Part shown: piece by piece, positions 762 to 26,966 of the stretch | Position numbering within the stretch: position 1 is the first letter of the stretch | How the letters are laid out: each line of letters starts with the position of its first letter | IMG/VR virus record: IMGVR_UViG_3300025736_000159 | Span: 1 to 26,966 of that record | Source: a virus | DNA: 26,966 bases | Strand: one strand, 5' to 3' | Notes under the pieces: model-generated | The model's input: the letters and a program-made list of their open reading frames with translations, nothing else | Databases searched by the model: none | Told to the model about the DNA's origin: nothing | Translations under genes and position numbers: made by a program

Positions 762-3078
762 AGACTATATACAATATAATTTTCCAGGGCCTCACATGAA
801 TCGTGGTGCGGCCTACACCAAGATAATGCCCGGTTCGTGTGGACGCGTAGTTGGGGCTGACTGTAGATACGGGGAGGGTATCCGTAAGTTCTACGGGATG
901 AAGTTGCTGGTAGACCTCGACGGTGAGTCCGGACTGGGTGACATAGATGCCTATTCTGGCCCGAGTTTTATGCAGGCAGTGACTTTCCAGAAGCGAGGTA
1001 CTGTTACCACGTATCGTGGCTTCGTAATCAGGTGGGACGCGATAGATAGTCTGACCGACCAGCAGGTTGATCTGGTGTATACTGATGATAATGGAGCCAC
1101 CTGGGCAAGAGAAAATATATGGGCCACAGGTAGTGGGATTACCAGTACGGTGGCGATGCAGTGTGCCGAGACCGGGGATTTCCTGATGATCGCCATCGAG
1201 GGGCAGTCCTGTAAGACGGTGTATTGGGATACTTCTGGAACCCCGGCACTGACGGTGGTGGATTCAGGAGCTGGTGCTTTTACGACGTCGCTACCAGAAA
1301 TCACGTATGCACCAGGGAGTGCTCCGGTGGCGGTAGCTTCAGATGATGGATATTATCTACGGTTAGGAGGTACTTATCAGTTTGCGTACCGATTTTATAG
1401 TTCCACCCGAAATGTGTACAGTGCCATGAGTACGATACATACGACGGTTGAAGACACAAACAGCTATAGTAAGTATCATATTGAATTTCCAGACAGTAGT
1501 GCATCCTTTACATACACTGATAGTGGTGCAGGGTTCGCTGATTTGTTTGATACGCTGCAGGTGTTCAGATCGGTCAATATAGCGGGTTCTACCTCGGCGG
1601 GGGCATTATTGTATCTTGATACGGAGCTAACACAGGCAGGAGTAACCACTCCGGATCTGAGTGATGACTCTAATCCGTGGACTGATGTGAGTAAGTGGAA
1701 TGCTCTGACGTTGGATGTGGGGAGGATACCCGATGAGGCATTATTTTTTCAAGAGACATATAATCCGGAGACGGACATAATGAAGGCGGTGCCTGAGTCG
1801 GGGGCTATCGGTAGGTATCAGGGGATAACGCTGATAGCACAGGCTGCTACGGATGAGGGGGGGTTTAATACGCTGCACTCGGCTGCGGATCAGTTGTCGC
1901 CAGAGTATTTTAACAGTTATAACGAGTACCAGGCAGATACTATGGATGGGGTGCCCTTGAACTATGTGAATGGGGCCGATTCGTGCTATATTATGGCAAC
2001 CAGCTCGATAGTACAGGTGAATAAGAAATCAGATACTCAGCCGCTTAAGTTTACCAAGATGCACCTGAGGCGGGGAATCGTAGCTAAGGAGGCCGCCCAT
2101 TCGGTGGGTAACAGTATCGTGATGCTTAGCGGGCTGGGTTTTATGCTGCTTGATGGTACCCGCGGGAATGCGGCACAGATAACCGCTGCTGACCGGGTGG
2201 TATTTGGAGATTGGGCAAGCGACCTGGCTAAGGTTAAGAGTGCCTATGATGCCAGGATGAATACAAGCTATTTTCTTAATCCAGATGATGACGAGATACT
2301 GCAGATAGGCCACTCCACACAGTCGGTGTCTATGCTGGAGGGTGCTAATTTTGTAACAGTATCCAGTACGATAGATATAGTGGATGAGGACATGCAGAGG
2401 GCCTACTTTATTACCGAAACCGGATTGATCGTGTATCCTGACGCCAACACGGCAGGCTCCGGAACCATGTGGGCCCTGGACGATGATGGGGCGGGCGAGT
2501 ATACATTTAACGGGGCAACTACAAATGTAGGTACGGATAATGTGATAGATACAGGTGCAACCTTTAGTGACGATATGATCGGTGCCCTGGTGTACATGAC
2601 AAGCGGAGACAATGCCGGAGAGTCCCGCGTGATAGAATCGTTTAAGGGAACTACGATGGTACTGGTGACTGCGTTTGATAATCAGATTGCGATAGGCGAT
2701 ACGTATGCAGTTAGCCCTGTACCATTTAAAGTTAGAATGTGGCCCCTCCGGGATAATGACCCACGGGTTGCGGTATACAGATTCAAACGGTGGAACATGA
2801 CTTCGATAACCCTTGAAGTAATCGACCAGTCCGGCTTCACAAACCTATCTAATAATAAGTTCAGACTCTCAGGATACCGAAACGGATCATCTAACCTGTC
2901 CAACTCTTCATCGTACGTCGCGGCGGACACTAATCCCGCGGATATGTCTGAAAGTATTAATATAGATGGAATAGTAGTAGAACCATATATAGAACAAATA
3001 TCAGTCGGTACAGGTTTTGAGTTGACAAGAGCCGAAGTAGGTGTTACAATAACTGAGAGTAGAAATGCTGCTGATTAG
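742..3078 (+). CDS. Putative tail nozzle / tail tubular protein B-like structural protein
   Basis: Encodes 778 residues. ATG 742 is chosen because GGAG at 733-736 lies five bases upstream; a GTG at 736 is the alternative. The protein is almost wholly beta-rich. It has a segment around residues 210-240 resembling the fibronectin-like part of tail tubular B / P22 gp10 type proteins, then repeats with L-x-V-F-R and D-G-T-R-G turns, as in a beta-propeller. Around residues 600-660 is a small domain reading DTGATFS..GALVY...SGDNAGESRVI, a module I know from several phage structural proteins. Size, composition and position just before ejection-type genes fit the podoviral nozzle that closes the tail channel. 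It could also be another large tail-hub protein; assignment is by pattern, not alignment. Confidence 0.6.
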   Translation: MPVKTSRDYIQYNFPGPHMNRGAAYTKIMPGSCGRVVGADCRYGEGIRKFYGMKLLVDLDGESGLGDIDAYSGPSFMQAVTFQKRGTVTTYRGFVIRWDAIDSLTDQQVDLVYTDDNGATWARENIWATGSGITSTVAMQCAETGDFLMIAIEGQSCKTVYWDTSGTPALTVVDSGAGAFTTSLPEITYAPGSAPVAVASDDGYYLRLGGTYQFAYRFYSSTRNVYSAMSTIHTTVEDTNSYSKYHIEFPDSSASFTYTDSGAGFADLFDTLQVFRSVNIAGSTSAGALLYLDTELTQAGVTTPDLSDDSNPWTDVSKWNALTLDVGRIPDEALFFQETYNPETDIMKAVPESGAIGRYQGITLIAQAATDEGGFNTLHSAADQLSPEYFNSYNEYQADTMDGVPLNYVNGADSCYIMATSSIVQVNKKSDTQPLKFTKMHLRRGIVAKEAAHSVGNSIVMLSGLGFMLLDGTRGNAAQITAADRVVFGDWASDLAKVKSAYDARMNTSYFLNPDDDEILQIGHSTQSVSMLEGANFVTVSSTIDIVDEDMQRAYFITETGLIVYPDANTAGSGTMWALDDDGAGEYTFNGATTNVGTDNVIDTGATFSDDMIGALVYMTSGDNAGESRVIESFKGTTMVLVTAFDNQIAIGDTYAVSPVPFKVRMWPLRDNDPRVAVYRFKRWNMTSITLEVIDQSGFTNLSNNKFRLSGYRNGSSNLSNSSSYVAADTNPADMSESINIDGIVVEPYIEQISVGTGFELTRAEVGVTITESRNAAD
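2895..2904 (-). repeat. Dispersed GTTGGACAGG element, copy in nozzle gene
   Basis: Exact 10-base match on the minus strand, antisense to its gene. The wider 16-base context (AACCTGTCCAACTCTT on the plus strand, 2893-2908) is identical at 10771 and 21265. Confidence 0.75.
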
Positions 3079-3092
3079 AAAGGAAGTTGATT

Positions 3093-4451
3093 ATGGCAAA
3101 GTTGGTAAGGCCTTACGATTTTGATACTGATGCTGCTGACCCCTATAATAAGCTTCTCCGTGAAGCTGTTAGTAGAGATACAGCAAGTACTGTGTCCAGT
3201 AGTCCTGGTTTGACTCGTCAAGCTATGGGTGGAAAACCAGGCGGAGGTACTGTAATGATGGGTGGGGGTGGCCCAAGAATAACACCCCAAATAAAAGCGG
3301 GGCAGGATAAACTTACCGATATGGGAAAGGCTTATGACGTTCCCGGTATAGAATCTTTGATGCAAACCATGACCTCACCTAAGAGTCAGGCTATGGCTGG
3401 AGCGGCCCTTACTGATTTTGGTGCTCAAAAGAAGGCTATGAGTAATCAGCAGGCTGAAAACGAGCAGATACTCAGTGCGATCACCGAAAAGACCCGGAAT
3501 TATCAGGAGGGCCTGCAGGAGGCCGAAGTTGATATGGAAAAGACTACGGAGCGTATGTCCGAGAGGTGGGAAAATGTTGAGGCAAAGGCCGATGAGTATG
3601 TGCAGAATACGTATGATCGTAATGTGGAGATGTTCGATAGGCTTGATACGCTTAGTGATGAGTTGACCGAGAGTAGGAATAGTGCTAAGGCACACGATAT
3701 GCAGGTGGCAATACAATCTACTATTGGGGCAATGACACGACAGGAAAAAGATATTGCCTGGAGGTACGGTAAAGATAGTGCTGAGTATCAGGCGTTCAAG
3801 GGTCAACAACACCAATCATTAGCTGTGATGAGTAGTAATATTGCAGCTAAATATCAACAGTTCGCCGAGCAGGCGGCTCAGCTTCGTCAGCAGTTGACCG
3901 CTGAGGTTGGCACCAAGATGGCGATGTACTCGAATTTTGCCGAACAGAATGCTCTGGAGACGGCTAAGCTGCGGGCCAATTCCGAAATACAATGGGAATT
4001 AAAACTATCACAACAGAAGGTTGCTCTCAGGCAGCTTGACCTGGCGGGCGAAGAGAATTTGTCTAAATGGTATAATGCTATGCCTGAGCTGACAATGAAC
4101 TATTCCGGGTTAACGGCTTTGCTGGCTAACATGGCATCTGGTCGCAGCTATGCTAGTGTATCAGCTGGTGGGGTTAGCGGCTCCGATGGTGGAGGTAGAG
4201 TTGGACAGGAGGGGTCGTCTGATGGTAGTTCGAGTGGTGGTACGGCGAGTGCGAAGACGAAGTCTGATTCGAGTACGGGGGGTAGTCGGCCCTCTGCTGC
4301 AGAGCGTAGAGCTACTGCGTCAGATCGTACTATAGAGGTTAACCGGAGACGCCAAGCAGCTGCGGGGGCTCGCACAAAAGATACACGTGAGAGAATTATA
4401 ACTCGACCTGCTGGGGATATGCCAAATAGGTATAGTAACCAGTATGCTTAG
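3093..4451 (+). CDS. Coiled-coil internal virion (ejection-type) protein
   Basis: Encodes 452 residues from ATG 3093, preceded by AAAGGAAG at 3079-3086; a TTG at 3087 is less likely. Residues 1-70 are Gly/Met-rich and probably disordered. Residues about 110-330 are heptad-like, Gln/Glu/Ala-rich helices typical of a long coiled coil. Residues 345-400 form a Ser/Gly linker, and the tail is Arg-rich. No enzymatic motif is visible. It follows the nozzle gene and precedes four more genes of the same style, matching the internal-virion cluster of podoviruses whose products enter the host envelope with the DNA. That role is inferred from context and composition. Confidence 0.6.
   Translation: MAKLVRPYDFDTDAADPYNKLLREAVSRDTASTVSSSPGLTRQAMGGKPGGGTVMMGGGGPRITPQIKAGQDKLTDMGKAYDVPGIESLMQTMTSPKSQAMAGAALTDFGAQKKAMSNQQAENEQILSAITEKTRNYQEGLQEAEVDMEKTTERMSERWENVEAKADEYVQNTYDRNVEMFDRLDTLSDELTESRNSAKAHDMQVAIQSTIGAMTRQEKDIAWRYGKDSAEYQAFKGQQHQSLAVMSSNIAAKYQQFAEQAAQLRQQLTAEVGTKMAMYSNFAEQNALETAKLRANSEIQWELKLSQQKVALRQLDLAGEENLSKWYNAMPELTMNYSGLTALLANMASGRSYASVSAGGVSGSDGGGRVGQEGSSDGSSSGGTASAKTKSDSSTGGSRPSAAERRATASDRTIEVNRRRQAAAGARTKDTRERIITRPAGDMPNRYSNQYA
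4200..4209 (+). repeat. Dispersed GTTGGACAGG element, copy in coiled-coil protein gene
   Basis: Exact 10-base match, preceded by GA as in most other copies (GAGTTGGACAGG), sense to its gene, in a Ser/Gly linker region. Confidence 0.7.
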
Positions 4452-4475
4452 TGATTGATGTGATTGGAGATTATT

Positions 4476-5849
4476 ATGGGTTTAGCTAATGAAATGCGTA
4501 CGGGGATGACACCGCTTCAGTTTGGGGCTCCCGATCCTACGATGGTGGCCAGTGTTGCTCAGGATAAGCAAAGGGCCCATGAGACTGGGATGCAGCGTTC
4601 CTCTAACGAGGCGGGAATGCAGCGGGCTCAGTTGCAGGCTGTAACGCAGCAGGATATTACTGATCGTCAAATAGAAGCTCAAACTGAGAATAATAAGCTG
4701 CTTGACCTCAGCCGAAGAAATGAGGAGGAGGGGCGTACGGCTCGGGCTAATGCTACGCTGGAGTTCCAGCAGAAGGTATTTACTTCTGAGAAGGAACGGG
4801 CCGCAGCCGCACGAGAGCTAGCTATGGATATAGCAACAGTGAATGCTGCACAATTAAATCGTAGTCAAAATCGTAATCTCGCGTTCGAGCTAAAAAAGTT
4901 GAAATTTGAGGCTCGGTCGAACTTGCAGAAAAGAAACGGCCAAAATGAGATTATTAAAGGGACGGTGGAACAGAACCAACGTAATAAGGATTTTGAAAAC
5001 AATAAGGTTAATTATCAGGGTTTGGTTGGGGAGGCACTGCCTGATTTTCTCACTATGAATAGATTGATGGAGGATAAGAGTAAGTGGGAGAAGGAGACGG
5101 CTGAAATGGAAGAGGAAGGGGCTACTATCTGGGGTACGTTTAAGTCTGGGTTGCCTGGTGGTAAGGAGAGAATAGACAGGCAATTGGCTAAGGAACCAGA
5201 AGGTAAATTGGTAGCATTTGATCCATTAAAAGGAGCATCCGTTGAACTGTCCAAGATACTTGGGGATAAGCTGCCTATTTCGTTCAATCAGTTGGCTGGT
5301 CCTCAGGGTGAGAAGCTACTGAGTGCGGCGATTGTGGAGGGTAAACTTACTGGAGAGGGACTGACTAGTCTGCGGGAGTTGATAGAGGGGTCGTTTCTGG
5401 CTCTTGACGCTCATAGTGATAGGGTTGGTATGACTCCGACTGGAGGGGTTAAGGTGCGGGAGTTTTATGACACACACATGTCGCCAGCTATTAGTAAGTT
5501 GTCACGTATTAAAATAACCCTGGCACAATTGGGCGATAGTGATAATAAAGATGTAGCTACAGCAGCGAAATATGCTATGGGTACGGCTGCTGCTGATATT
5601 AGCTCCCGATTGGAGAAATACACTAATATGCAGGCTGATCCTATGGCTAATCTGGATTTATTATTCAAGGAATTAGGGACTGATAAGTACGTACCTATCC
5701 CTAATCCAAATAACAGTAGTTTTATTGCCAATGCTAATGAGCAGGGTGCAATGCAGCAGGCCGCTTATCTTCTTTTGCTTCAGGGCATGGATACACAGGT
5801 TGAAGTTATTGAGTCAATAGGTTCAGGTGCGAATAAAAATATAGAATAA
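4476..5849 (+). CDS. Coiled-coil internal virion-type protein
   Basis: Encodes 457 residues from ATG 4476, with TTGGAG at 4464-4469 as ribosome binding site; a TTG at 4464 is rejected because it would remove that site. Residues about 20-180 are Gln/Glu/Arg/Asn-rich helix with many GMQR and QAQ-type repeats, predicting an extended coiled coil. The C-terminal half is mixed helical, including a hydrophobic-rich stretch around residues 260-320. No membrane segment or catalytic motif is visible. It probably assembles with the preceding coiled-coil protein inside the capsid or tail. I do not recognise a named family. Confidence 0.58.
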   Translation: MGLANEMRTGMTPLQFGAPDPTMVASVAQDKQRAHETGMQRSSNEAGMQRAQLQAVTQQDITDRQIEAQTENNKLLDLSRRNEEEGRTARANATLEFQQKVFTSEKERAAAARELAMDIATVNAAQLNRSQNRNLAFELKKLKFEARSNLQKRNGQNEIIKGTVEQNQRNKDFENNKVNYQGLVGEALPDFLTMNRLMEDKSKWEKETAEMEEEGATIWGTFKSGLPGGKERIDRQLAKEPEGKLVAFDPLKGASVELSKILGDKLPISFNQLAGPQGEKLLSAAIVEGKLTGEGLTSLRELIEGSFLALDAHSDRVGMTPTGGVKVREFYDTHMSPAISKLSRIKITLAQLGDSDNKDVATAAKYAMGTAAADISSRLEKYTNMQADPMANLDLLFKELGTDKYVPIPNPNNSSFIANANEQGAMQQAAYLLLLQGMDTQVEVIESIGSGANKNIE

Positions 5850-5859
5850 GGAGTTTATT

Positions 5860-6282
5860 ATGTTTCAACTATTAGGTATCATTGACCCTATAAGTCAAAT
5901 TCTTATGGCTATTGCCGGGGGTATGGTAATGAGCAAGGGTATCGGGCTTTTTGGGAAAACAGGTGAACGGGCTCATGCGGAGAAGATGCAGGGCAAGGCC
6001 GATGAAGCGAGCAGAATGCAGTTCGAGGCTATGAGTAGGATGTCTCAGGCCGCTGGCACCAGAGCGGAGAAGGTACAAGCACTGAATATTAAGACCGGGC
6101 GGGAAGATAGGACTTCCGAGCAGGAGTTTCAGCTATTGAGAGATATGCTTAGTAGGGATCAGAATACTTCGGATAAACAGATGGCTATGGTAATGGCTAT
6201 GTTGGGAAATGCAGGCAGACCCCCGGCAAGCGTTGGTGGTAACCTGGCTAACAACCCGTCATTATTGGCTTTAATGAGATAA
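5860..6282 (+). CDS. Small virion-module protein with N-terminal membrane segment
   Basis: Encodes 140 residues from ATG 5860, with AAGGAG at 5848-5853. Residues 5-30 form one hydrophobic Gly/Met/Ile-rich segment with a GGMVMSKG turn, consistent with a transmembrane helix. Residues 35-110 are a charged, Met/Gln-rich amphipathic helix, and the end is a short flexible tail. The design of one membrane helix plus coiled coil, placed among ejection-type genes, fits a small internal virion protein that inserts in the host membrane during DNA entry. T7 gp14 is a functional analogue at most. It is cotranscribed with its neighbours, with gaps of 10 and 12 bases. Confidence 0.58.
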   Translation: MFQLLGIIDPISQILMAIAGGMVMSKGIGLFGKTGERAHAEKMQGKADEASRMQFEAMSRMSQAAGTRAEKVQALNIKTGREDRTSEQEFQLLRDMLSRDQNTSDKQMAMVMAMLGNAGRPPASVGGNLANNPSLLALMR

Positions 6283-6294
6283 AGGGATAGACAA

Positions 6295-7092
6295 ATGGCA
6301 AGCAACCAATCACTTGAAACTTTAATTAAACAGATTATGAACTTAGCCCGACAGACAGGTAGGGGGGGTAATCCTGTATCAGCAAAGGGTATAACTGCGC
6401 TCATCCGAAATGCAACAGTTAGTCAGGGAAAAGAAATAGTTATTGCGGCTAAGGTTGCTGAGAATACTATGGGGGAACCCCGCGTCCTGAAAAAACTAAT
6501 TGATAATATTAGGGATATAACAACCCAAACTACAGTAGCTAAGACCGGTTCAAAGTTTGCTGGGGTACGGAACTTAAGCGATCTTAAAGCAACCGTGCAG
6601 GCAGTAGCTTCCGGCACTGCTGGAGGTGTAGGTGTAGGTTCCAGTACTGCAGGTATTACAGGCACCCCACCTATGGGTGGTGGGGTTATAAAAGGGGTGG
6701 CCTCAGAGTTGGATGATGCAGCTAGATTAGCTGCTGGTGGCGTGGATGATGCAGCGGCGGCTGCTGGTGGCGTTAAAGAGATAGGTAGATTGGATAAGAT
6801 TAAGGGTAGTTTCAATAAACTCAAGAAGCCTGGTGGTACGGAGTTAGGTTGGGGGCTTGGTATTGGGTTGTTGTATGAGTTGCTTAGTGGAGGTATGGAT
6901 GTAAAAGGGCAGGCTATGGATAGGGATATTGCGGAGGCTCAGGCTCCGACACCGGAGATGATGTTCAGACAGGCTATGATGCCCGCTGTGCAGGGTGAGT
7001 ATCAGCAGAATCTGGCGATGCTTATGCAACAAATGCAGGGAGAATCGGGAATGCCCCAGGCAGCACGGGGTGAAGAACTTATAGGGGGTTAG
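6295..7092 (+). CDS. Glycine/alanine-rich virion-module protein
   Basis: Encodes 265 residues from ATG 6295, with AAAGGGA at 6281-6287. Residues 1-100 are helical. Residues 105-160 are Gly/Ala/Thr-rich with repeated GGVDDAA-like units. A hydrophobic stretch LGWGLGIGLLYELLSGG around residue 185-200 could insert in a membrane. The end is Met/Gln-rich. No recognised domain. Gene order places it with the ejection-type proteins; it overlaps nothing and is separated from the next ATG by one base, suggesting translational coupling. Function is inferred only from context. Confidence 0.55.
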   Translation: MASNQSLETLIKQIMNLARQTGRGGNPVSAKGITALIRNATVSQGKEIVIAAKVAENTMGEPRVLKKLIDNIRDITTQTTVAKTGSKFAGVRNLSDLKATVQAVASGTAGGVGVGSSTAGITGTPPMGGGVIKGVASELDDAARLAAGGVDDAAAAAGGVKEIGRLDKIKGSFNKLKKPGGTELGWGLGIGLLYELLSGGMDVKGQAMDRDIAEAQAPTPEMMFRQAMMPAVQGEYQQNLAMLMQQMQGESGMPQAARGEELIGG

Positions 7093-7093
7093 A

Positions 7094-10000
7094 ATGGTCA
7101 TAAGCAGGACTATGGTATTTCCCTCTGAGCTGTATGATCGTAGCTCTATTGCTCTGGGTAACATGGCATCAGGAGATATGGGGGCTGCGATGACCGCACT
7201 GATCAGCCCGATGAAGCTGTCTCCGGCGGAGATAAAGTCGATAAGGTCGGCGTTCATGCCCAATGAGGCAGCTAAAAAGAATCCAATTATGGCCACCGCT
7301 ATGGACCTGGCCACAAATCCAATGATTATTATTGGTCTTGCTATGATGCTGGGGCCCTGGGGTAAAATCGCAAACCCTAAACAGCTAAATGCCTTATTAA
7401 AAGAAGGTAAGGGTTTTATCAAGGGCTCCAGTCCTTTCTTGCGTGGTTTGTTTAGTGACTTTACAAACTACCGTAACCTGTGGTACAAGAAGGATTTTCT
7501 ACAGTTGCTGGGTCAACAGACCAACGAGACCATACTGGTGCAGTCGAAGCTGGAGGCTAAGTTTGATGATCTGGTGGCGGTGATGGGCCAGAAGTTAGGT
7601 AGGAAACTGCTTAAGGAAGACTTTATGGCTATAGAGTCCTATGCTCGTGGCTTTAATAAGACAGATAATATATTCAGTGTGAAGTATGGAGATATTCTGG
7701 GCACAAAGGTACCCCTGATGCCTAAGCTGCAGGCTAAGCTGGGCCCGGTAAGATTGGAGGCTGCCAGAAAACTAAAGGCACTGTATGCTGAGGTGGATGG
7801 GCTGATGACTAAGGGGCCTGGATTTGCTGAGCACGGAGGGAGTGCTATGCACGAGATGGAGCTAAAAGGGTTTCTGATGCGATCCGGCACTACAGGGTCT
7901 GATTACTTTCCGGCTCGTGCGACAATCAAGAGTAAAGCACAGGAGTGGCTCAAGCTGAGTAGTGCTGAGCTTAGACGGAGGTATAGGGAAACCCTGAACG
8001 TGGCGTTAGAGGGGAGGACTGCGGGTAGGAGTGCTGCTACTAAGGGGTATTCGATTCCGTTGCAGGCTGACCTGGAGATGATGAAGGATTACTTTGATCC
8101 GGTGCAGTATAAAAAGCTGCTTAGTATTGAGCCCACGAATATTGAGAATGCCCGCAAGGGATTGACTAACCTGACCGATGATATGATTAAGTTCTATGGT
8201 AGGAAAGTAATGCCCAAACCGATCAGTGCAAAGGTCAAAGCACGGGTAGCTTCGCAGTTAAAGGTAGTAGATCAGAAAATAGACGCGATCCGTAATATAG
8301 GCGTAGAACACCATATGCGAGACGTAGGCTCTTTAACACCGGGGAGGACTATAAGTGCGTTAAACAAGGCAAAACTAAGAGCCTTAGCTGCCGAGCGGGA
8401 TACGATTAGGAGTGCTCTTCGTACACCTGGTGGGACGGTTGAGGAGATTGAGGCGGGGTTTGAAGAAGTGATTGAGGGTATAATGAAGCACCTGCATGTA
8501 TTTGAGTCTAAGAGTGAGATCAGAAGTAAGCTGGTGAAGGAACTTGCGGAGGCGGCTAAGTATCGGCCTAAGGATATTAAGGGGTTAGTTGATTTGCTTA
8601 GTGTTGAGGTTGGTTCGGTTCCGCGGTTTGGATTGAGGGCAGATGTTACTATGCCTCGGTTGTTTAAGGCTGTGTCTCCTACACACAACTGGTGGATCAA
8701 AGGGTATGGGCCCACGATGACTAATATCGTTAAGACCGGAGATAAGTGGCAGCAGACAATGTGGGGGGACTATACGGCGGCGATGATGCGGGGGATGATG
8801 AATCCCAAGGAGTTTGCTCGTAATCAGTTTTTCAGGAGTACTACGCGGGCGGCCCAGGAGTTTTTGATCCAGCCCGGTAAAGCTCAGAATTTGATACCTT
8901 CCAGTACGAAGCAGTGGATGATAGATGCGTTGGGCGGTTCGACCGGTAAGCTGTCGGCTACTACGTTTGGCGGAGCACTGGCCTCCAGGATGTATGCTTC
9001 TACGCTGGCTATGAATATGAGTCCGGTTAGTAAGAATCTGCTGCAGAACTATATTACTACGCTGCCTATTGTGGGTGGTAAGTCTATGATGAAAGGGATG
9101 AGCAGGGTTACGGGGGGGCTGGGCAAATTGACTAACTGGCGGGGGGTTAGGGTGCCTGGGACGGGTGAGCTGGCTAAGAGCTTTGAGGAGGCTTTTACGG
9201 TGGTGTTTCCTGAATACACAGGGCAGTTTCCCAGTGAGCGGATCGCACAGGCGATGATGACTGGGGATATAGCTAAGGAAGGACAGATTCTTGGTAAGCT
9301 GGGGGGTATCAGGAAGATAGAGAAGCTTATGATGATGCCGTTCGCGGGGTCTGAAAAGTTCAATAGGTTGTTGGCATTTTACTCGTCGCATGACTGGGCC
9401 ACAAAAGGCGGGCTGGCGGCGGCTGACGCGGCGGGCATGGCTGGGCAATTGACCCGGCTGACTCAATTTTATGGGGGGACGTTGGGTGTTCCTAAGTGGT
9501 TGAGGGGTGTATCGGCTCCTGCAAGGCAGTTTATGCACTTTCCGATGAGATATTTGGAGTTTTTGTATAACTCGTCCAGGATGATGCACCCCGGTGGGCC
9601 GTTGGGTGAGGGGGCCAGGGGGATTACTACTGGTATTATGGGCAGGACGATGGTTGGTTCGGCGGGATTGTATACGGTGGCGAAGAATTTGCTCAATACG
9701 GATGTTAGTGGCGGGTTGGCATTTGCGGCTCTACCTTTTCCTCAGTATGAGAGTTCACCGTTCTATCCGTTTCCGTTGGTTCCACCTGCTATCTCGGCGG
9801 TGGGTGATGTAGCCAAGAGTGTGATGACGGGTAACTATGAGGGGCTTGGGGGAAGGATGGCTGGTATTGCGTTGCCTGGGGGGTTGGCGGCCAGAAGGGC
9901 GTATAGGACGTTTGCACCTAAGTATGCGGGGTATAAGCAGAGGTCGGCAGAAGGTAAGATTCCGGTGTACAATAAGGATGGGGCACTGATCTCGGAGCAG

Positions 10001-15574: not shown

Positions 15575-15946
15575 TTACGTATAGTCATCGTACCCAAATA
15601 CAATCACTGCTCCAGCAGCACTACCGTCTACGGTAGGGGTTACCCTAAGTATTGCATTTTCAGGAAGAACTACGGTATGGGGAAAATTCATGGGTACTGT
15701 ACCGATAGCACCAACATAGAATATTGCACCACCAAACAAATCTACTGAGGCAGCTTCTCCCACCTTAGACTGGAAGGAGTAGCCTGATGCCGTAACATTT
15801 GATAGTGTTATACCTGTTATGCTAATACGTTTGTTAGCCCCGGGAGATGCTAATACAGTCATCTCAGCGGTGCCAGCTGGAGGTACGCTGGCGGGCCAAC
15901 GGGTTGAGTTCTCTACTCTTATTGGTCTTACTTCTATTGAGGCCAT
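15575..15946 (-). CDS. Beta-sandwich-like protein, paralogue 1 of a tandem pair
   Basis: Encodes 123 residues from ATG 15946 with AAGAAAGG upstream. Predicted almost entirely beta. It shares with its upstream neighbour the start (EVRPIR.ENSTRWPA), the SPGANKRI.IT segment, FPHT.VLPENA and the end FGYDDY, so the two arose by duplication. Small beta-rich phage proteins of this size are often capsid decoration or head-fibre proteins, which would be unusual inside a replication block on the opposite strand. An alternative is a secreted or host-directed binding protein. Function not proven. Confidence 0.65.
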   Translation of the reverse strand: MASIEVRPIRVENSTRWPASVPPAGTAEMTVLASPGANKRISITGITLSNVTASGYSFQSKVGEAASVDLFGGAIFYVGAIGTVPMNFPHTVVLPENAILRVTPTVDGSAAGAVIVFGYDDYT

Positions 15947-15973: not shown

Positions 15974-16345
15974 TTAAATATAATCGTCATATCCGAAGGC
16001 TACTACACCACCCAGGCTATTAAGATCGCTTGATAATGTTACCTGCAGGGCTGCATTTTCAGGTAGAACCAACGTGTGAGGAAAATTCAATACTACCGTA
16101 GTTGCGGTAGCGACTATGTAGCCATCCGCAAGGAGGTTTACTGATGCTGCTGACCCTACCTTAGATAGAAAATTAAAAGATGAGGCTGTTGCAGGAGGTA
16201 CCGATACGATTAGCTGCGTGATATTAATGCGCTTATTGGCACCCGGGGAGGTTAATAGTACTTGTTCGGCGGTGCCGTCAGGGGCTATCCCGGCGGGCCA
16301 ACGGGTTGAGTTCTCGCAGCGTATTGGTCTTACTTCGCTTGGCAT
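15974..16345 (-). CDS. Beta-sandwich-like protein, paralogue 2 of a tandem pair
   Basis: Encodes 123 residues, the same length as its paralogue, from ATG 16345 with AAGAAAGG upstream. Conserved blocks are EVRPIR.ENSTRWPA near the start, TSPGANKRINIT in the first third, NFPHTLVLPENAALQV and the terminal AFGYDDYI. Differences cluster in the middle (residues 50-85), where loops of a beta-sandwich would vary. The pair follows the ERCC4-type nuclease gene and precedes the internal promoter. Product probably multimeric and possibly displayed on the virion; this is inferred from fold style only. Confidence 0.65.
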   Translation of the reverse strand: MPSEVRPIRCENSTRWPAGIAPDGTAEQVLLTSPGANKRINITQLIVSVPPATASSFNFLSKVGSAASVNLLADGYIVATATTVVLNFPHTLVLPENAALQVTLSSDLNSLGGVVAFGYDDYI

Positions 16346-22147: not shown

Positions 22148-22361
22148 GATTATTTATTATTTTTCTGCTTGTAGGGGAGATAGCGGAGTGGTAATTCATC
22201 AAAGAAAAGCTGTTAGGCTGTTAGGAAATTTTTGGGTGGCAGTTATAATTCATTATAATAAAAGCTATTAGAAAAAAATAAGGGTGTATTTTATATATAA
22301 TACCTATACTGTGTCTTTTTATACGGTAGAAAATTATTTTTTCTTTTTTCCGGTTTTGTCA
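22148..22361. other. AT-rich region between divergent promoters
   Basis: No gene is convincing here. It holds a perfect 8-base tandem repeat GCTGTTAG (22209-22224) and several A/T tracts (22226-22232, 22270-22280, 22331-22350). Such a region may bind a regulator or nucleoid protein for both promoters; nothing marks it clearly as a replication origin. Confidence 0.4.
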
Positions 22362-22390
22362 TTGACAGGTTGCCGTATATCATATATATT
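22362..22390 (+). promoter_or_regulatory. Sigma70-type promoter of the ubiquitin-like operon
   Basis: Perfect -35 TTGACA (22362-22367), 17-base spacer, -10 TATATT (22385-22390). Predicted start near 22397 gives a leader of about 230 bases before the first gene of the rightward operon. The hexamers equal those of the promoter at 15518-15546, so the same host polymerase should read both. Confidence 0.85.
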
Positions 22391-22543: not shown

Positions 22544-22626
22544 AGGCTTGACTGTAAGGCTGAGAGTGGAGTTGTAGAATGGGAATTGGTTATGGATAAG
22601 GCTAACAAGGAAGGGAGGCATTGTGT

Positions 22627-22893
22627 ATGGGCATAGGTTGTAAGTGTGGTTATAGAACATCCTTAGCTGGAGCAGTCAGTTGTTTTTTAGTGGGTGAGCC
22701 TGCCAGTGGCGGTTCACTGATGAGTACGGGTGATGGTTTGTACTCGTATGGAGTGAGAATAGGATACTGGATGGACGGTAAGGTTGTAATGTCTGATGCG
22801 TTGTGTGTTAGAAGCCGGACTACCTCCAGGCACAGGAATCTACTTAGACAGATGGTTGTCGCTAAGGGGATATCCTTAATTGAAGATAAGTAG
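22627..22893 (+). CDS. Small conserved-looking protein with LYSYG and TTSRH motifs
   Basis: Encodes 88 residues from ATG 22627, with GGGAGG seven to eight bases upstream; an ATG at 22720 is an alternative that removes a Cys-containing N-terminal part. The core reads LYSYGVRIGYW.DGKVV...RSRTTSRHRNLLR. I associate this pattern (LxSYxTxIA ... TTSRH) with a small family found in phages and archaeal mobile elements. Its biochemical role is unknown to me. As first gene of the operon that encodes the ubiquitin-like protein, it could be a substrate, a regulator or an unrelated accessory protein. Confidence 0.65.
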   Translation: MGIGCKCGYRTSLAGAVSCFLVGEPASGGSLMSTGDGLYSYGVRIGYWMDGKVVMSDALCVRSRTTSRHRNLLRQMVVAKGISLIEDK

Positions 22894-22914
22894 ACAGCCA
22901 AGAATGGAGTTATC

Positions 22915-23112
22915 ATGAGTATTACAGTAAGTATCCGAAGACGTGGTGTAGATGATGAATTAACCCTGGACGCAGGCACTATGCTTTACAGTGTAGTTAA
23001 CCACAGCACTGACAATGTATTCCTCGGTGGTACCAAGGTTGAACGTGACACTGAGCTGCGTGATGGCGATGAGATCGAGACTACAGTTATCAGTTCCAAA
23101 GCTGGCTGCTAA
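22915..23112 (+). CDS. ThiS/MoaD-like ubiquitin-like (beta-grasp) protein ending in Gly-Cys
   Basis: Encodes 65 residues from ATG 22915 with GGAG six bases upstream. The order strand-strand-helix-strand-strand is visible: ITVSIRRRG, DELTLDAG, TMLYSVVNHS, NVFLGGTKV, then LRDGDEIETTVI. The D-G-D-E-I-E turn before the last strand is the hallmark of ThiS/MoaD-type sulfur carriers and related ubiquitin-like proteins. These are adenylated at a C-terminal Gly-Gly; here the end is Ser-Lys-Ala-Gly-Cys. Removing the final Cys would expose Gly64, which the JAMM peptidase of the same operon could in principle do. The E1-like gene lies downstream. Fold call is strong for such a short protein; conjugation versus sulfur transfer is open. 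Confidence 0.8.
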   Translation: MSITVSIRRRGVDDELTLDAGTMLYSVVNHSTDNVFLGGTKVERDTELRDGDEIETTVISSKAGC

Positions 23113-23143
23113 GACGATGTTGGTGTTGGTGTCCGAGTGAAAA

Positions 23144-23153
23144 GTTGGACAGG
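23144..23153 (+). repeat. Dispersed GTTGGACAGG element, intergenic copy in ubiquitin-like operon
   Basis: Exact 10-base match, flanked as AAGTTGGACAGGTT, in the direction of transcription. It lies between the ubiquitin-like gene and the zinc-protein gene, followed by a G-rich inverted repeat. Confidence 0.8.
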
Positions 23154-23165
23154 TTAGAGTTTGCT

Positions 23166-23205
23166 GGGTAGGGTGGGTTGGGCTGAGAGGTTCAGGTCGC
23201 CCTAC
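23166..23205 (+). other. G-quadruplex motif within an intergenic inverted repeat
   Basis: GGGTAGGGTGGGTTGGG at 23166-23182 has four runs of three G with loops of 2, 1 and 2 bases, a canonical quadruplex pattern on the coding strand. The first part (GTAGGG) can instead pair with CCCTAC near 23199-23204, followed by TCTTGTTTTC. It may therefore act as a weak terminator or a switch between two structures after the ubiquitin-like gene. Confidence 0.6.
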
Positions 23206-23255
23206 TCTTGTTTTCATAGGTTGTGGTTAGTATTCAGGCAGGAAAGGTGGTTACG

Positions 23256-23531
23256 ATGGGTATAGAGAGACGTGTGAAGATGTCGTGTGATAATCCTAAT
23301 TGCAAGGCAGAATTGGTAGAGGTTGAAGTTCAGGTTGGGGTTTGTGGTGGAAATAAGGAACTGAATAAGAGGGGTTGGTATGTGGGGGTATTTGAGACTC
23401 GACCTGAAGGTGGGGACCATGGTAAGGAGCGTTCGGTTTACTTCTGCTGTTGGTCTTGTTATGTAAAGTGGTGTTCGGTTATCGGTCTGCATACTATTGT
23501 AGATTGTGTGAATGTAGGTAAGTATAAATAA
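23256..23531 (+). CDS. Small treble-clef/FCS-type zinc-finger protein
   Basis: Encodes 91 residues from ATG 23256, with GGAAAGG upstream; an in-frame GTG at 23223 is rejected because that site would be internal. Cysteines are arranged as C-x4-C (residues 11-16) and YFCCWSCYVKW (C64, C65, C68), the layout of FCS/MYM-like treble clefs, where a C-terminal F-C-x-W-x-C helix completes the site. Such fingers bind proteins or nucleic acids; a RING-like ligase role cannot be claimed from this sequence. It is followed 17 bases later by the E1-like gene and preceded by the structured spacer with the G-quadruplex. Confidence 0.75.
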   Translation: MGIERRVKMSCDNPNCKAELVEVEVQVGVCGGNKELNKRGWYVGVFETRPEGGDHGKERSVYFCCWSCYVKWCSVIGLHTIVDCVNVGKYK

Positions 23532-23548
23532 GAAAGGTGGTTAGGACT

Positions 23549-24364
23549 ATGAGTGAGTTATTAGATATGAGTAAGAAGGTGCAGGTGTTGGTGGTTATTG
23601 GTTGTGGTGGGGTTTACTATCATGGTCGGGGGGCTATGCAGAACTGGGTGGCCCGGCGGGGTAGAGATAAGGTTGCGGTGGTGTTCGTCGATCCGGACAC
23701 GCTTGAGGAGCGGAATGCCCTGAGGCAGTGGCCTGGAGATGTGCAGGAAGGGGTAGTGAAGTCAGTGGTGGCTATGATGGACTTTGATGTTCTTGATGAG
23801 GATGAGGAGTTTGTTGCGTTGGCGGGGGGTGTTAGTAGTGTTTGTACTCCTTTTAGTGGGGAGCCGGGGCAGGGGCTGAGTAATTTTGTCGGTGCTGCTG
23901 GGGATGAGTTTACGCGTCAGGCAGGGGGTACTTCAGAGGTGATTGGGGTGAATGTGATGGTGTTTCCGGATAACCATGCCTGTAGGGTTGAGGCTCTGAA
24001 GCAGTGTATAGTATTGAGTGCGGAGCGGGGGATACCGGTGAGGATGGTTACGGCGGGGAATGATGAGACGAGTGGATGGGCATATTCGACGGTGGTTAGG
24101 GGTGGAGTGGTGTATGGCGACTGGCGTGAGAAGCATCCTGATATTGTGGAAGAAGCTAAGCTGGAGTTGGCAGGGACGAGTGATCCGCTGGGTTGTGGTG
24201 CTCTTGGCAATACAGCCGAGCAGAGTGTTCGGGGTAACATGCTGACGGCAACGCTGGCCTGGGACCTGGCTGAGAAGATGCTGGGTGGTAAGGTAGGTGA
24301 GGCTCACTGGGATGCTGACCCTGAGAATGAAGAATTGATAACCCTACGTACACAAATGCAATAA
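23549..24364 (+). CDS. E1/ThiF-like adenylating enzyme for the ubiquitin-like protein
   Basis: Encodes 271 residues from ATG 23549; AGAAAGGTGG precedes it and a GTG at 23537 is less likely. The Rossmann nucleotide loop is VVIGCGGVYYHGRG (residues 15-28). VFVDPDTLEERNALRQ (44-59) gives the D-x-D...E-x2-N-x2-R-Q motif that binds Mg-ATP, all key residues intact. A VFPDNHACR segment gives the downstream Asp-Asn. CGALGN near 220 holds a candidate catalytic Cys. Enzymes of this fold adenylate the C-terminus of a ThiS/MoaD/ubiquitin-like partner. The retained R-Q and short length recall the ThiF of PRTRC cassettes. No CxxC zinc pairs are seen. The partner is presumably the 65-residue protein upstream. 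Confidence 0.9.
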   Translation: MSELLDMSKKVQVLVVIGCGGVYYHGRGAMQNWVARRGRDKVAVVFVDPDTLEERNALRQWPGDVQEGVVKSVVAMMDFDVLDEDEEFVALAGGVSSVCTPFSGEPGQGLSNFVGAAGDEFTRQAGGTSEVIGVNVMVFPDNHACRVEALKQCIVLSAERGIPVRMVTAGNDETSGWAYSTVVRGGVVYGDWREKHPDIVEEAKLELAGTSDPLGCGALGNTAEQSVRGNMLTATLAWDLAEKMLGGKVGEAHWDADPENEELITLRTQMQ

Positions 24365-24367
24365 TCA

Positions 24368-24390
24368 TAGAAAGGTAGGTTACAGTTATG
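24368..24390 (+). repeat. 23-base repeated translation-initiation leader, copy 1
   Basis: Identical to 24794-24816. It contains TAGAAAGGTAGG and ends in the ATG of the 138-residue gene. A partial copy (AAGAAAGGTAGGT) precedes the JAMM gene near 25086-25098. Confidence 0.8.
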
Positions 24391-24804
24391 AGTCTATTTC
24401 AAGGTAGTAGTCTGAAGAACGGCGGGCCTTCGCTTGAGGAGTTGGATGCGTTGGCGGGTGTGTATACTGATGGCGGCAAGAGGGTGACTGCAAGTGGGTT
24501 GTATATACACCAGAAGAGGATTATTAACAATGAGATTGATTGTTATAATAACAGTAAGTACAGGGTGTATAGGCAGGCTGCGTTTGCCGAGAGAGTTATG
24601 GATGCAATTGAGGTGCTTAGTGCTGCATGCAAGTGTCAGGGTAATAGTGGTGGTGCAGATGACTTGTCGAGGGCACTTAAGAGATTTCAGTGGGATTTGG
24701 ATGCCCTTAGTGTTCGACTGCAGCTGCAACTGAAAAAGGAGGTTACCACGTTGATTAAACGTACGGTTATTAGAAGTTATAAGAGTGATAGGTTAGAAAG
24801 GTAG
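24388..24804 (+). CDS. Helical hypothetical protein of the ubiquitin-like operon
   Basis: Encodes 138 residues from ATG 24388. Predicted mostly helical: residues 15-25, 45-85 and a long amphipathic helix 88-132 ending Lys/Arg-rich. Two Cys (in ACKCQG, about residues 81-83) are the only conserved-looking reactive residues. No E2 signature (such as the HPN-type motif and catalytic Cys in a UBC fold) is visible. It could be an adaptor, a coiled-coil partner or a substrate. Cotranscribed, 23 bases after the E1-like gene. Confidence 0.65.
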   Translation: MSLFQGSSLKNGGPSLEELDALAGVYTDGGKRVTASGLYIHQKRIINNEIDCYNNSKYRVYRQAAFAERVMDAIEVLSAACKCQGNSGGADDLSRALKRFQWDLDALSVRLQLQLKKEVTTLIKRTVIRSYKSDRLER

Positions 24805-24816
24805 GTTACAGTTATG
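24794..24816 (+). repeat. 23-base repeated translation-initiation leader, copy 2
   Basis: Exact copy of 24368-24390, here overlapping the end of the upstream gene and ending in the ATG of the ribbon-helix-helix-like gene. Confidence 0.8.
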
Positions 24817-25086
24817 GGTGCGTATATGAATACAGTAAGTATGCCTATACAGATATTGATACGTGAAGTTGACGCCGAGAAGGTGAATAAACGTCAGTTT
24901 AAGAATAAGGTTACCCAGTCCTTGTTGGATGGATTTCAGCCTAAGCATGTTCCTGGTGTACCTCACATGGTACGATTGCAGTTTCAGTTGCCTGTACCTA
25001 TTGCAAAGAGATTAGTGCTTCTGGCTAAGCAGGCCAACATAAGTGTAAGTACACTTTGTAGACAGATATTGGGGTTGAAGTATTAA
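24814..25086 (+). CDS. Ribbon-helix-helix-like small protein, possible regulator
   Basis: Encodes 90 residues from ATG 24814. A later ATG five codons in is possible. The last 40 residues read MVRLQFQLPVPIAKRLVLLAKQANISVSTLCRQILGL, divided as one strand, a helix, a turn NIS and a second helix, which is the MetJ/Arc order with the typical S-x-S-x-L-x-R second helix. It may bind DNA as a dimer and could control the operon, perhaps through the operator-like sequences between the divergent promoters. Assignment is by pattern and of moderate certainty. Confidence 0.6.
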   Translation: MGAYMNTVSMPIQILIREVDAEKVNKRQFKNKVTQSLLDGFQPKHVPGVPHMVRLQFQLPVPIAKRLVLLAKQANISVSTLCRQILGLKY

Positions 25087-25105
25087 AGAAAGGTAGGTAG
25101 TAGAA

Positions 25106-26506
25106 ATGGTTAAGACTAAGGCTAAGTGTGTGGTTGATGGGGGATTGGGGGTTGCATTGGAGGTGAAGCTGCCCACGGGTAGGAAGGCCTGGGTGCGGCC
25201 TGATGGGGAGCTGTGGCAGAAGTCCCGTTGTTTGGGTGCGGAGGCGTTTGTGCCTATTTCGGATGAGCACCGCAGGGTTGACTTTGGGTTGGCTCCTGAA
25301 GAGGTGGTTGAGTTGGCGTGTAATCTGCAGGTGATGCCTGATGTTAAGTGGCGGCTGCCTGCGGCGGTGTTGGACAGGTGGGCACATAAGCTGGTCGCTA
25401 TGTTTAAGACTGAGAGTCTGGTGATTTATGGGTATAATGAGAAGAAGGATGATTGGCTGGCGGTGACGCCGGAGCAGGAGGTTACAGGTGGTAGTGTGGA
25501 TGTTGATGATTGTGGACCTGCCTTTGAGGTGTTGATGGGGTTGGGCTACAGGGTTGTCGGTACGATACATACCCATCCTGGTGGTATGGTTGCGGGTTCG
25601 AGTACGGACCATGGTGATTTGTGGACTGACTGTTCTGGGGTGCACTATGTGGTGGCCCGGACGACGGGTGGTGTTGGGGTTTACTTTAGTGTGCCAGGTG
25701 CTGTCTGGAAGATAGATGACGATAAGGCTTGGAAGCGGGAGGCACTGTGGGATTCAGGAACGAAGGTTAAGAGTAAGAAGAAGGTGCGGGGATTGGTTAA
25801 TCACCTGGGGGGCAGGAAGCTAAAGAAGTCTGTCACTACGAAGAAGATTATGCAGCTATACCAGGGTGGTGTTGGTAACTCTAAGTGGGGTACAGACTGG
25901 TGGAAGGATGATGAGTTGGCATACTGGCAGGGTGAGGCTAAGGAGCGGGAGTATCAGTCTATGCTTTTCCCTGACGAGGGTGGGGGTGTTCATGGGGTAC
26001 CGCATAGGCGGCAACCTAAGGAGTTGGAGCAGCTGACTATGGATGAGGCTACTGCCGCTTTGGTTGCTGATAAAACCTACGGTGAGGTTAGGGAGCGGGC
26101 TTTGAGTCAGCTTCTGCCTGAGTATTGTTGTGGGGATGATGGTTACAGCCTGGAGGGGATGATGAATGAGTTCGAGAATCAACTGTTTGGCACGGGTGTG
26201 GGTACTTTTCTTGAGGAGGGTATTCCTGAGAATCGGAAGTTGATTCGACGATACGGGTGGAGTCTGATCAAGAAGTTTAGGATGATGCTTGCGTATAAGG
26301 ATGAGCTTAGGGCTGCGGCTTTGGTGCCGAAGGATACGATGGGGGATGGTGATAGGACGATAGAGGAGGAGGAGATGCCGATTGAGTTGTGGTTTCTCAG
26401 GGCGGAGCTGCTTACGTGGCTGGATGATTTTGATTGTGAGTTTATGATTCAGGATGACTCTGTTGATGGGGTCAAGAAAGGAGTTAATAATGGTAATACC
26501 GATTGA
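25106..26506 (+). CDS. JAMM/JAB metallopeptidase with ~270-residue C-terminal extension
   Basis: Encodes 466 residues from ATG 25106 with AAGAAAGG upstream. Residues about 85-205 are the JAB/MPN domain: candidate catalytic Glu103 (in KTESLVIYG), then H155-T-H157-P, then S165-x2-D168, an exact fit to H-x-H-x7-S-x2-D that binds the catalytic zinc. JAMM enzymes cut after the C-terminal Gly of ubiquitin-like tags or trim precursors. The following P-E-Q-E-V segment recalls the JAB subfamily of phage and PRTRC cassettes. Residues 210-466 are a charged, largely helical region with one Cys-Cys (YCCGDDG) and no known domain. It overlaps the next gene by 17 bases. Activity toward the 65-residue protein is inferred. 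Confidence 0.9.
   Translation: MVKTKAKCVVDGGLGVALEVKLPTGRKAWVRPDGELWQKSRCLGAEAFVPISDEHRRVDFGLAPEEVVELACNLQVMPDVKWRLPAAVLDRWAHKLVAMFKTESLVIYGYNEKKDDWLAVTPEQEVTGGSVDVDDCGPAFEVLMGLGYRVVGTIHTHPGGMVAGSSTDHGDLWTDCSGVHYVVARTTGGVGVYFSVPGAVWKIDDDKAWKREALWDSGTKVKSKKKVRGLVNHLGGRKLKKSVTTKKIMQLYQGGVGNSKWGTDWWKDDELAYWQGEAKEREYQSMLFPDEGGGVHGVPHRRQPKELEQLTMDEATAALVADKTYGEVRERALSQLLPEYCCGDDGYSLEGMMNEFENQLFGTGVGTFLEEGIPENRKLIRRYGWSLIKKFRMMLAYKDELRAAALVPKDTMGDGDRTIEEEEMPIELWFLRAELLTWLDDFDCEFMIQDDSVDGVKKGVNNGNTD
25369..25378 (+). repeat. Dispersed GTTGGACAGG element, copy in JAMM gene
   Basis: Exact match (GTTGGACAGGT), sense to its gene. The upstream GA of other copies is replaced by GT, so this may be the weakest member. 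Confidence 0.6.
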
Positions 26507-26966
26507 TAATACGTATAGAGGTACGGGTGGAGAAGCAAATGAGCGTACGAGTGGAGATCCAACTATGAATGCCGGTGGGATACCGCGTACGGGGTTGAGT
26601 AGGGAGACTGTAGAGGATATGATGGGTACGGTGATAGAGGGGATGACTGCGGTGGTTCTTGCTTATACGGAGTGGATTGGGGTTAGGGGTATGTGTTGGA
26701 TGCTGGGTGAAGAGGGGTATGAGAATGGTTATACGATGAATATGAATCAGGATACTGGTTGGGATAGGAATTGCTTTTTGGCGGGGGTTGTCTGTGATGT
26801 TATGAATAGGCTGATACCGGCAGGGAGGACGGTCAGTAGGTCGGACAATAGGGTTACGATTAGGCCGGTTGTAGGGTTGACGTATGATACGGATGTGGAG
26901 GGTGAGCCGCCGGTGAGGCCGGTTGTAGGGTTGACGTATGATACGGATGTGGAGGGTGAGCCGCCG
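26490..26966 (+). CDS. Unidentified last gene of the operon (3' truncated)
   Basis: ATG 26490, with AAAGGAG at 26477-26483, starts a frame open to the window end, 159 codons. Residues 1-35 are polar, 40-75 helical with a hydrophobic patch (MTAVVLAYTEWIGVRGMCWML), 90-120 contain CFLAGVVCDVMNRL, and the end is two exact copies of an 18-residue unit rich in Pro, Val, Asp and Glu. No E2 or ligase motif is visible. The overlap with the JAMM gene makes it part of the same operon. The true C-terminus is outside the window. Confidence 0.65.
   Translation, partial: MVIPIDNTYRGTGGEANERTSGDPTMNAGGIPRTGLSRETVEDMMGTVIEGMTAVVLAYTEWIGVRGMCWMLGEEGYENGYTMNMNQDTGWDRNCFLAGVVCDVMNRLIPAGRTVSRSDNRVTIRPVVGLTYDTDVEGEPPVRPVVGLTYDTDVEGEPP
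26862..26966 (+). repeat. 54-base exact tandem repeat at the window end
   Basis: Copy 1 spans 26862-26915 and copy 2 starts at 26916 and is still identical when the window stops (51 bases seen). The repeat is in frame (18 codons). Being at the edge it may continue as a longer array, or reflect an assembly end. Confidence 0.85.

Follow-up and report, generated by a model that had tools for sequence, protein, structure and literature searches.

Genes for a ubiquitin-like protein, an E1-like enzyme and a JAMM protease are kept together in an operon of related phages

Genes for a ubiquitin-like protein (Ubl) and for the enzymes that might activate and release it raise a simple question when they are found in a phage: does the virus run a protein-tagging system of its own? 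The question is raised here by an operon in IMG/VR record IMGVR_UViG_3300025736_000159, a linear phage fragment whose 26,966 bases were analysed in their entirety and are called the window below. The operon lies on the plus strand, starts near 22,600, extends past the right end of the record, and encodes a Ubl, an E1-like adenylating enzyme and a JAMM metalloprotease. To our knowledge, the bacterial Ubl systems described so far belong mostly to anti-phage operons and mobile elements, and the known phage cases, in which tail assembly involves a Ubl domain and a JAB protease, lack an E1. The retention of the whole set in related viruses suggests that some phages run a ubiquitin-like tagging system of their own.

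The Ubl gene (22915..23112) encodes a protein of 65 amino acids that an earlier reading of the sequence, here called the original prediction, had assigned to the beta-grasp fold. Structure prediction agrees with this assignment, as the AlphaFold2 (AF2) model is a beta-grasp with a predicted local distance difference test (pLDDT) score of 84, and the closest solved folds (Foldseek/VIA) are Mth1743 (TM 0.80, Z 9.2), MoaD, SUMO and a bacterial Ubl. A hidden Markov model (HMM) of the family unites ten homologues, and Pfam ThiS matches six of the eight aligned members (best 5e-6). A Pfam FHA match to the window protein (0.005) was judged to be spurious. The window protein ends in SSKAGC (23092-23109), and no Gly-Gly C-terminus is found among the window-type homologues.

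By its motifs and its family profile, the protein encoded at 23549..24364 (271 amino acids, a single domain) is a member of the ThiF/E1 superfamily, the last glycine of the P-loop excepted. Its motifs are GCGGVY (23600-23617), DPDTLEERNALRQW (23690-23731), D....R (23966-23986) and a conserved cysteine within GCGALG (24191-24208). The ATP motifs had been described as intact, which holds for N..RQW (the RQ finger), the lysine and the catalytic D....R, all of which are invariant or nearly so across the family, but not for the last G of GxGxxG, which is gone. The window protein alone matched no E1 model in Pfam, PHROG or NCBIfam, and the family as a whole had no real match among PHROGs; an NCBIfam APH match to the window protein was set aside as spurious. 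Pfam ThiF matches six of the seven E1 proteins in the first alignment, and the family profile retrieves UBA5, MccB, SUMO- and NEDD8-activating enzymes and MoeB from the PDB (1e-6 and up). The top NCBIfam model is PRTRC_ThiF (TIGR03736), which matches six of ten family members (7e-10) and leaves the window protein itself unmatched. When the E1 family was compared with the plasmid PRTRC ThiF by using hhalign, the result (98%, 4e-14) was equalled by none of 60 shuffles, and the invariant Cys, Gln and Asn of the phage E1s align with the same residues in PRTRC ThiF.

The JAMM gene (25106..26506) encodes 466 amino acids with a long C-terminal extension. The metal site comprises a Glu in ESLVIYG (25412-25432) and HTHPGGMVAGSSTD (25568-25609), which is the exact HxH...S..D match originally noted, and the HxH, S and D are invariant across nine aligned proteins. 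The window protein scores 1.2e-3 against Pfam Prok-JAB, which falls short of the curated cut-off, and one relative scores 8e-8. A search of the PDB with the JAMM profile yields an Rpn11-like match (2e-4), with resemblance to Rpn11- and AMSH-type proteases and to Cap3, and the NCBIfam Cap3 model matches five of nine homologues (best 1.2e-4). No NlpC/P60 domain was matched in the JAMM proteins of the window and its relatives. For both enzymes, profile searches nearly fail with the window proteins alone, whereas the relatives give the ThiF and Prok-JAB matches that bear out the E1 and JAB assignments.

How widely is this gene set shared? BLAST-type searches with the window proteins returned nothing useful from phage, plasmid and viral-contig collections, and the plasmid search gave a single chance-level ThiF match on a cyanobacterial plasmid. 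Relatives were therefore reached through the polymerase, for which an alignment of four sequences led to about 60 viral contigs, many of them 48-60 kb long. Records close to the window are excluded from the collections, in which many entries are fragments. An E1 homologue is present in 7 of the 50 longer contigs, with a JAMM gene adjoining it in six and detected by HMM in the seventh, and a scan with the E1 profile added two further phages. The nine relatives carry E1s that are 23-36% identical to the window E1, and each has a small Ubl-like open reading frame (ORF) upstream of E1. By phmmer clustering and HMMs, the order Ubl, E1, JAMM is shared by all ten loci, window included. Thus, the phage-carried operon proposed at 22627-26966 is confirmed for these three genes, in an order common to ten related phages, nine of which were added by the neighbourhood survey. 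A DPDx5NxxRQW pattern searched at the DNA level matched ten contigs, and two of these matches were attributed to chance. A partial literature search, which is not proof, found no description of the full Ubl/E1/JAMM set in phages.

The polymerase tree groups the window with its two nearest kin in one clade (three rows, support 100/99), and all three carry the module. A second clade has the module in five of its seven members; the other two are short records (38 and 40 kb). Polymerases in the window's group are about 50% identical to each other, which means that the module has been retained for a long time. Its absence from 40 of the 50 relatives does not show loss, because of the omitted and fragmentary records mentioned above.

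Three of these 50 contigs gave weaker matches to the E1 profile and proved to carry sister modules. These loci encode a Ubl, an E2-like protein with many cysteines, a JAMM protein and an E1 with a normal P-loop, and in one case u90, the small gene that precedes the Ubl gene in the window, lies upstream. A scan for the sister E1 type yielded 24 viral contigs, ordered Ubl, E2-like, JAMM, E1 in almost every case; carriers include four phages of the window's clade and about 20 other viral contigs. The modules occupy 2141-5825 (L122), 5089-8552 (L123) and 5690-9861 (L124), all on the minus strand, and are also present on L125-L147, in all about 23 viral contigs of 30-183 kb. A phage terminase of one family occurs in 9 of 27 module-bearing records tested, and the viral status of the others is the IMG/VR classification. 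GTDB genomes held nothing of the window E1 type and, for the sister type, two short contigs from metagenome-assembled genomes. When compared by profile, the window and sister types match at 95.8% for E1, 96.9% for JAMM and 98.4% for Ubl.

The E2-like protein of the sister modules carries an HPHxxxxGxxCxG-like motif in the first three loci and HPHxxxxxCxG in most of the 24 contigs, often followed by a Cys-rich, RING-like tail. Four of the five PDB matches to its core profile are ubiquitin-conjugating enzymes, at E values of only 0.1-1.6; HPN and the Cys are paired in the one alignment displayed. Its profile aligns with PRTRC-B above all 40 shuffles. Most of the Ubl tails in the sister modules have the form PxK(V/I)xG with 0-9 residues behind the glycine, and these extra residues call for trimming. 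Two 221-amino-acid Ubl ORFs (L132 1438-2103 and L142 1288-1953) outscore the single-domain ones and are possibly tandem Ubls as in polyUbl systems.

The folds, the families, the fixed gene order and the long co-retention are established by this analysis, and from them we infer the chemical steps, the target and what the phage gains. We consider it reasonably probable that the operon supplies the activation and recycling functions at the core of a Ubl conjugation system encoded by the phage. The JAMM protease would trim the Ubl tail to its conserved glycine, here by cutting SSKAGC between G and C, much as BilC is reported to trim BilA to expose a C-terminal glycine (PMC11354881). The E1 would adenylate this glycine with ATP and may hold the Ubl as a thioester on the conserved Cys. 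In CBASS (cyclic oligonucleotide-based antiphage signalling systems), a single C-terminal Gly suffices and Ala serves less well (PMC10097602). The Ubl could then be joined to a protein of the phage or the host, either directly or by a transfer enzyme whose gene lies past the end of the record, and the JAMM protease would remove it again.

Several observations weigh against this proposal. Window-type Ubl tails vary (AGC, AAA, QGN, QGSDN, RLA), and thus the processing point is a guess. The glycine missing from GCGGVY in the window E1 is likewise missing in all nine relatives. No E2 was found in the window operon as far as the record runs, nor did the large downstream gene of six relatives align with E2 profiles above shuffles. 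Finally, the E2-like identity of the sister protein, as judged from its motif, gene order and weak profile scores, is likely but not proven.

Sulfur transfer was the other function originally offered beside tagging. In such a pathway the E1 would activate the Ubl for thiocarboxylate formation, serving tRNA, cofactor or nucleotide modification, and the JAMM protease would trim the Ubl, as occurs in QbsE/QbsD-type pathways. The Ubl family is indeed nearest to ThiS/MoaD by Pfam and fold, and the E1 is a single-domain protein of MoeB/ThiF size. However, the genes scanned include no recognisable rhodanese, cysteine desulfurase or thiolase, the Ubl does not end in a Gly-Gly carboxylate, and the same families are paired with an E2-like protein in the sister modules. 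We therefore regard a sulfur carrier as unlikely, and it is this E2-like protein that makes tagging the likelier of the two.

Two further explanations differ in what would be tagged, and both are compatible with conjugation. The module might mark proteins that belong to rival phages or to host defences, an idea we hold to be rather doubtful, if slightly less so than sulfur transfer. In PADLOC, the sister E1s have their best scores with CBASS E1-E2 models and weak ones with BilD, and the sister gene order is that of BilABCD, yet these scores may stem from nothing more than the common E1 fold, the window proteins have no PADLOC match, and no CD-NTase or effector was recognised nearby. Less probable still is a role as an assembly timer, in which the Ubl is a removable tag on a virion protein that the JAMM protease cuts off late in assembly. 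There is precedent in lambda, where gpK is reported to cleave the Ubl domain of gpI (PMC12908700), and in six relatives the genes ahead of the module encode a series of paralogues, which may be virion appendages, and a small membrane protein. However, the window module is not beside structural genes, the published account of lambda tail assembly includes no E1 (PMC1779556), and a free Ubl with an E1 requires activation rather than cleavage alone.

With regard to conjugation more broadly, we see an even chance that phages of several lineages carry complete systems (Ubl, E1, E2-like protein with RING-like tail, and JAMM), that the window clade is a reduced or rewired branch whose E1 nucleotide loop has changed, and that host or virion proteins are tagged during infection. 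If phages do own an activating system, with sisters that add E2-like and RING-like parts, then protein tagging would be a viral tool in bacteria too. Such modules would widen the pool of simple systems for studying the origin of ubiquitin signalling and are direct targets for reconstitution.

Does the operon belong to a system already described? By its defining features, the window module is not PRTRC, Bil, CBASS or lambda gpI/gpK. The PRTRC cassette is a plasmid set of Ubl, JAB, E1 and E2 that matches row 6d of Iyer et al. 2006, who also list bacterial E1/E2/Ubl/JAB operons and, for lambdoid tail clusters, Ubl plus JAB (PMC1779556). Plasmid records for this comparison were found with a PRTRC-C query, and only annotated records were used. 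PRTRC_ThiF is the best-scoring named E1 family for window-type E1s, the window-type JAMM profile is weakly related to PRTRC-A, and the Ubl ends near a K-x-G-like motif by eye. In contrast, the window-type Ubl profile gives no hhalign alignment to PRTRC-C beyond shuffles, no ParB-like, E or F protein was detected by NCBIfam in the operon as far as it runs, and the module is phage-located with a changed P-loop. A PRTRC-B E2-like protein was not seen in the operon up to the point where the record stops, and the large downstream gene of six relatives is not alike.

BilABCD, which is ordered Ubl-E2-JAMM-E1 as are the sister modules, has Ubl, E1 and JAMM in common with the window. Its Ubl and E1 each have two domains (PMC11354881), whereas the window and its nine kin are ordered Ubl-E1-JAMM, the 65-amino-acid Ubl and 271-amino-acid E1 of the window have one domain each, and no E2 or PADLOC match was seen in the operon as far as it runs. 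CBASS type II (Cap2/Cap3) likewise has an E1 plus a JAB, and the Cap3 model matches five of the nine JAMM homologues. However, the window E1 stands alone rather than as an E1-E2 fusion, a true Ubl is present, the operon has no CD-NTase profile match, and PADLOC matches neither E1, JAMM nor Ubl. Lambda also pairs a phage Ubl with a JAB protease, but gpI fuses its Ubl to a structural domain and gpK is fused to NlpC/P60, whereas the window Ubl is free. ThiS/ThiF and MoaD/MoeB resemble the window proteins in their Ubl and E1 folds and differ in that the window has no GG tail, has a JAMM protein and has no recognised biosynthetic partners.

The other operon genes are also on the plus strand. The first, u90 (22627..22893), is small and conserved and encodes the LYSYG...TTSRH protein named as a partner in the original prediction; HMM searches support this by locating it directly upstream of Ubl in eight of the ten window-type loci and in some sister loci. 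A small Cys-rich protein (23256..23531; CDNPNC ... FCCWSCYVKWC) is a possible zinc binder whose ORF has a Shine-Dalgarno (SD) leader. Strong SD leaders precede u138 (24388..24804), an ORF inside the operon, and the gene for a 90-amino-acid protein (24814..25086) that is ribbon-helix-helix-like by eye only. None of these three has a profile match (Pfam, PHROG, NCBIfam) or a recognisable counterpart in the relatives, and the treble-clef and ribbon-helix-helix labels have no backing from profiles. The next gene (26490..26966), of which only the start is present before the record end, has no significant homologue.

Leaders of the AGAAAGG or GGAAGGGAGG type precede most operon genes. The E1 starts at the ATG at 23549 and the Cys-rich gene at 23256, and the upstream GTGs are not the starts. 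The single strong promoter that had been proposed did not stand up, since the best site (22362-22390) has 11 of 12 matches, yet the nine promoter-like sites found are not above chance (6.8 +/- 2.4 in shuffles).

In six relatives, a large conserved protein with an FNGPxxxPCTG motif, and in some cases a zinc-rich end, is encoded behind JAMM (L090 8202-9758, L091 6212-7966, L092 3782-5215, L093 4529-5785, L099 11820-13307, L100 5994-7259). The idea, formed by eye, that it is an E2 was rejected, as its AF2 model has a pLDDT of 43 and its hhalign scores to E2 profiles are no better than shuffles. In L089, a 528-amino-acid protein directly behind JAMM (8098-9684) has a PCTG motif and many CxxC pairs, with double zinc ribbon matches. 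A small HExxH protein, metalloprotease-like by motif, is encoded upstream of the module in six relatives (L090 5059-5364, L091 2755-3060, L093 8313-8630, L099 8623-8922 and L100 797-1111 among them).

Elsewhere in the window, structural-type genes occupy the plus strand of the left 10 kb, and a replication block on the minus strand in the middle encodes PolA, an ERCC4-type nuclease, a Sak4-like annealing protein and an exonuclease. The N-terminal region of PolA is of uracil-DNA-glycosylase type by eye. A second record (L002) is 99.9% identical to the window, and its contig begins at position 22,236 of the window, shortly ahead of the operon. Because of this boundary, it neither confirms nor denies the operon. 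At the very end of the window (26863-26966), a 54-base in-frame repeat is present in two head-to-tail copies, starting at 26863 and 26917 within the last gene, and this is probably the reason that the assembly stops there. The window also holds a neighbouring pair of paralogous genes (15575-15946 and 15974-16345), each encoding 123 amino acids, whose products are 58% identical.

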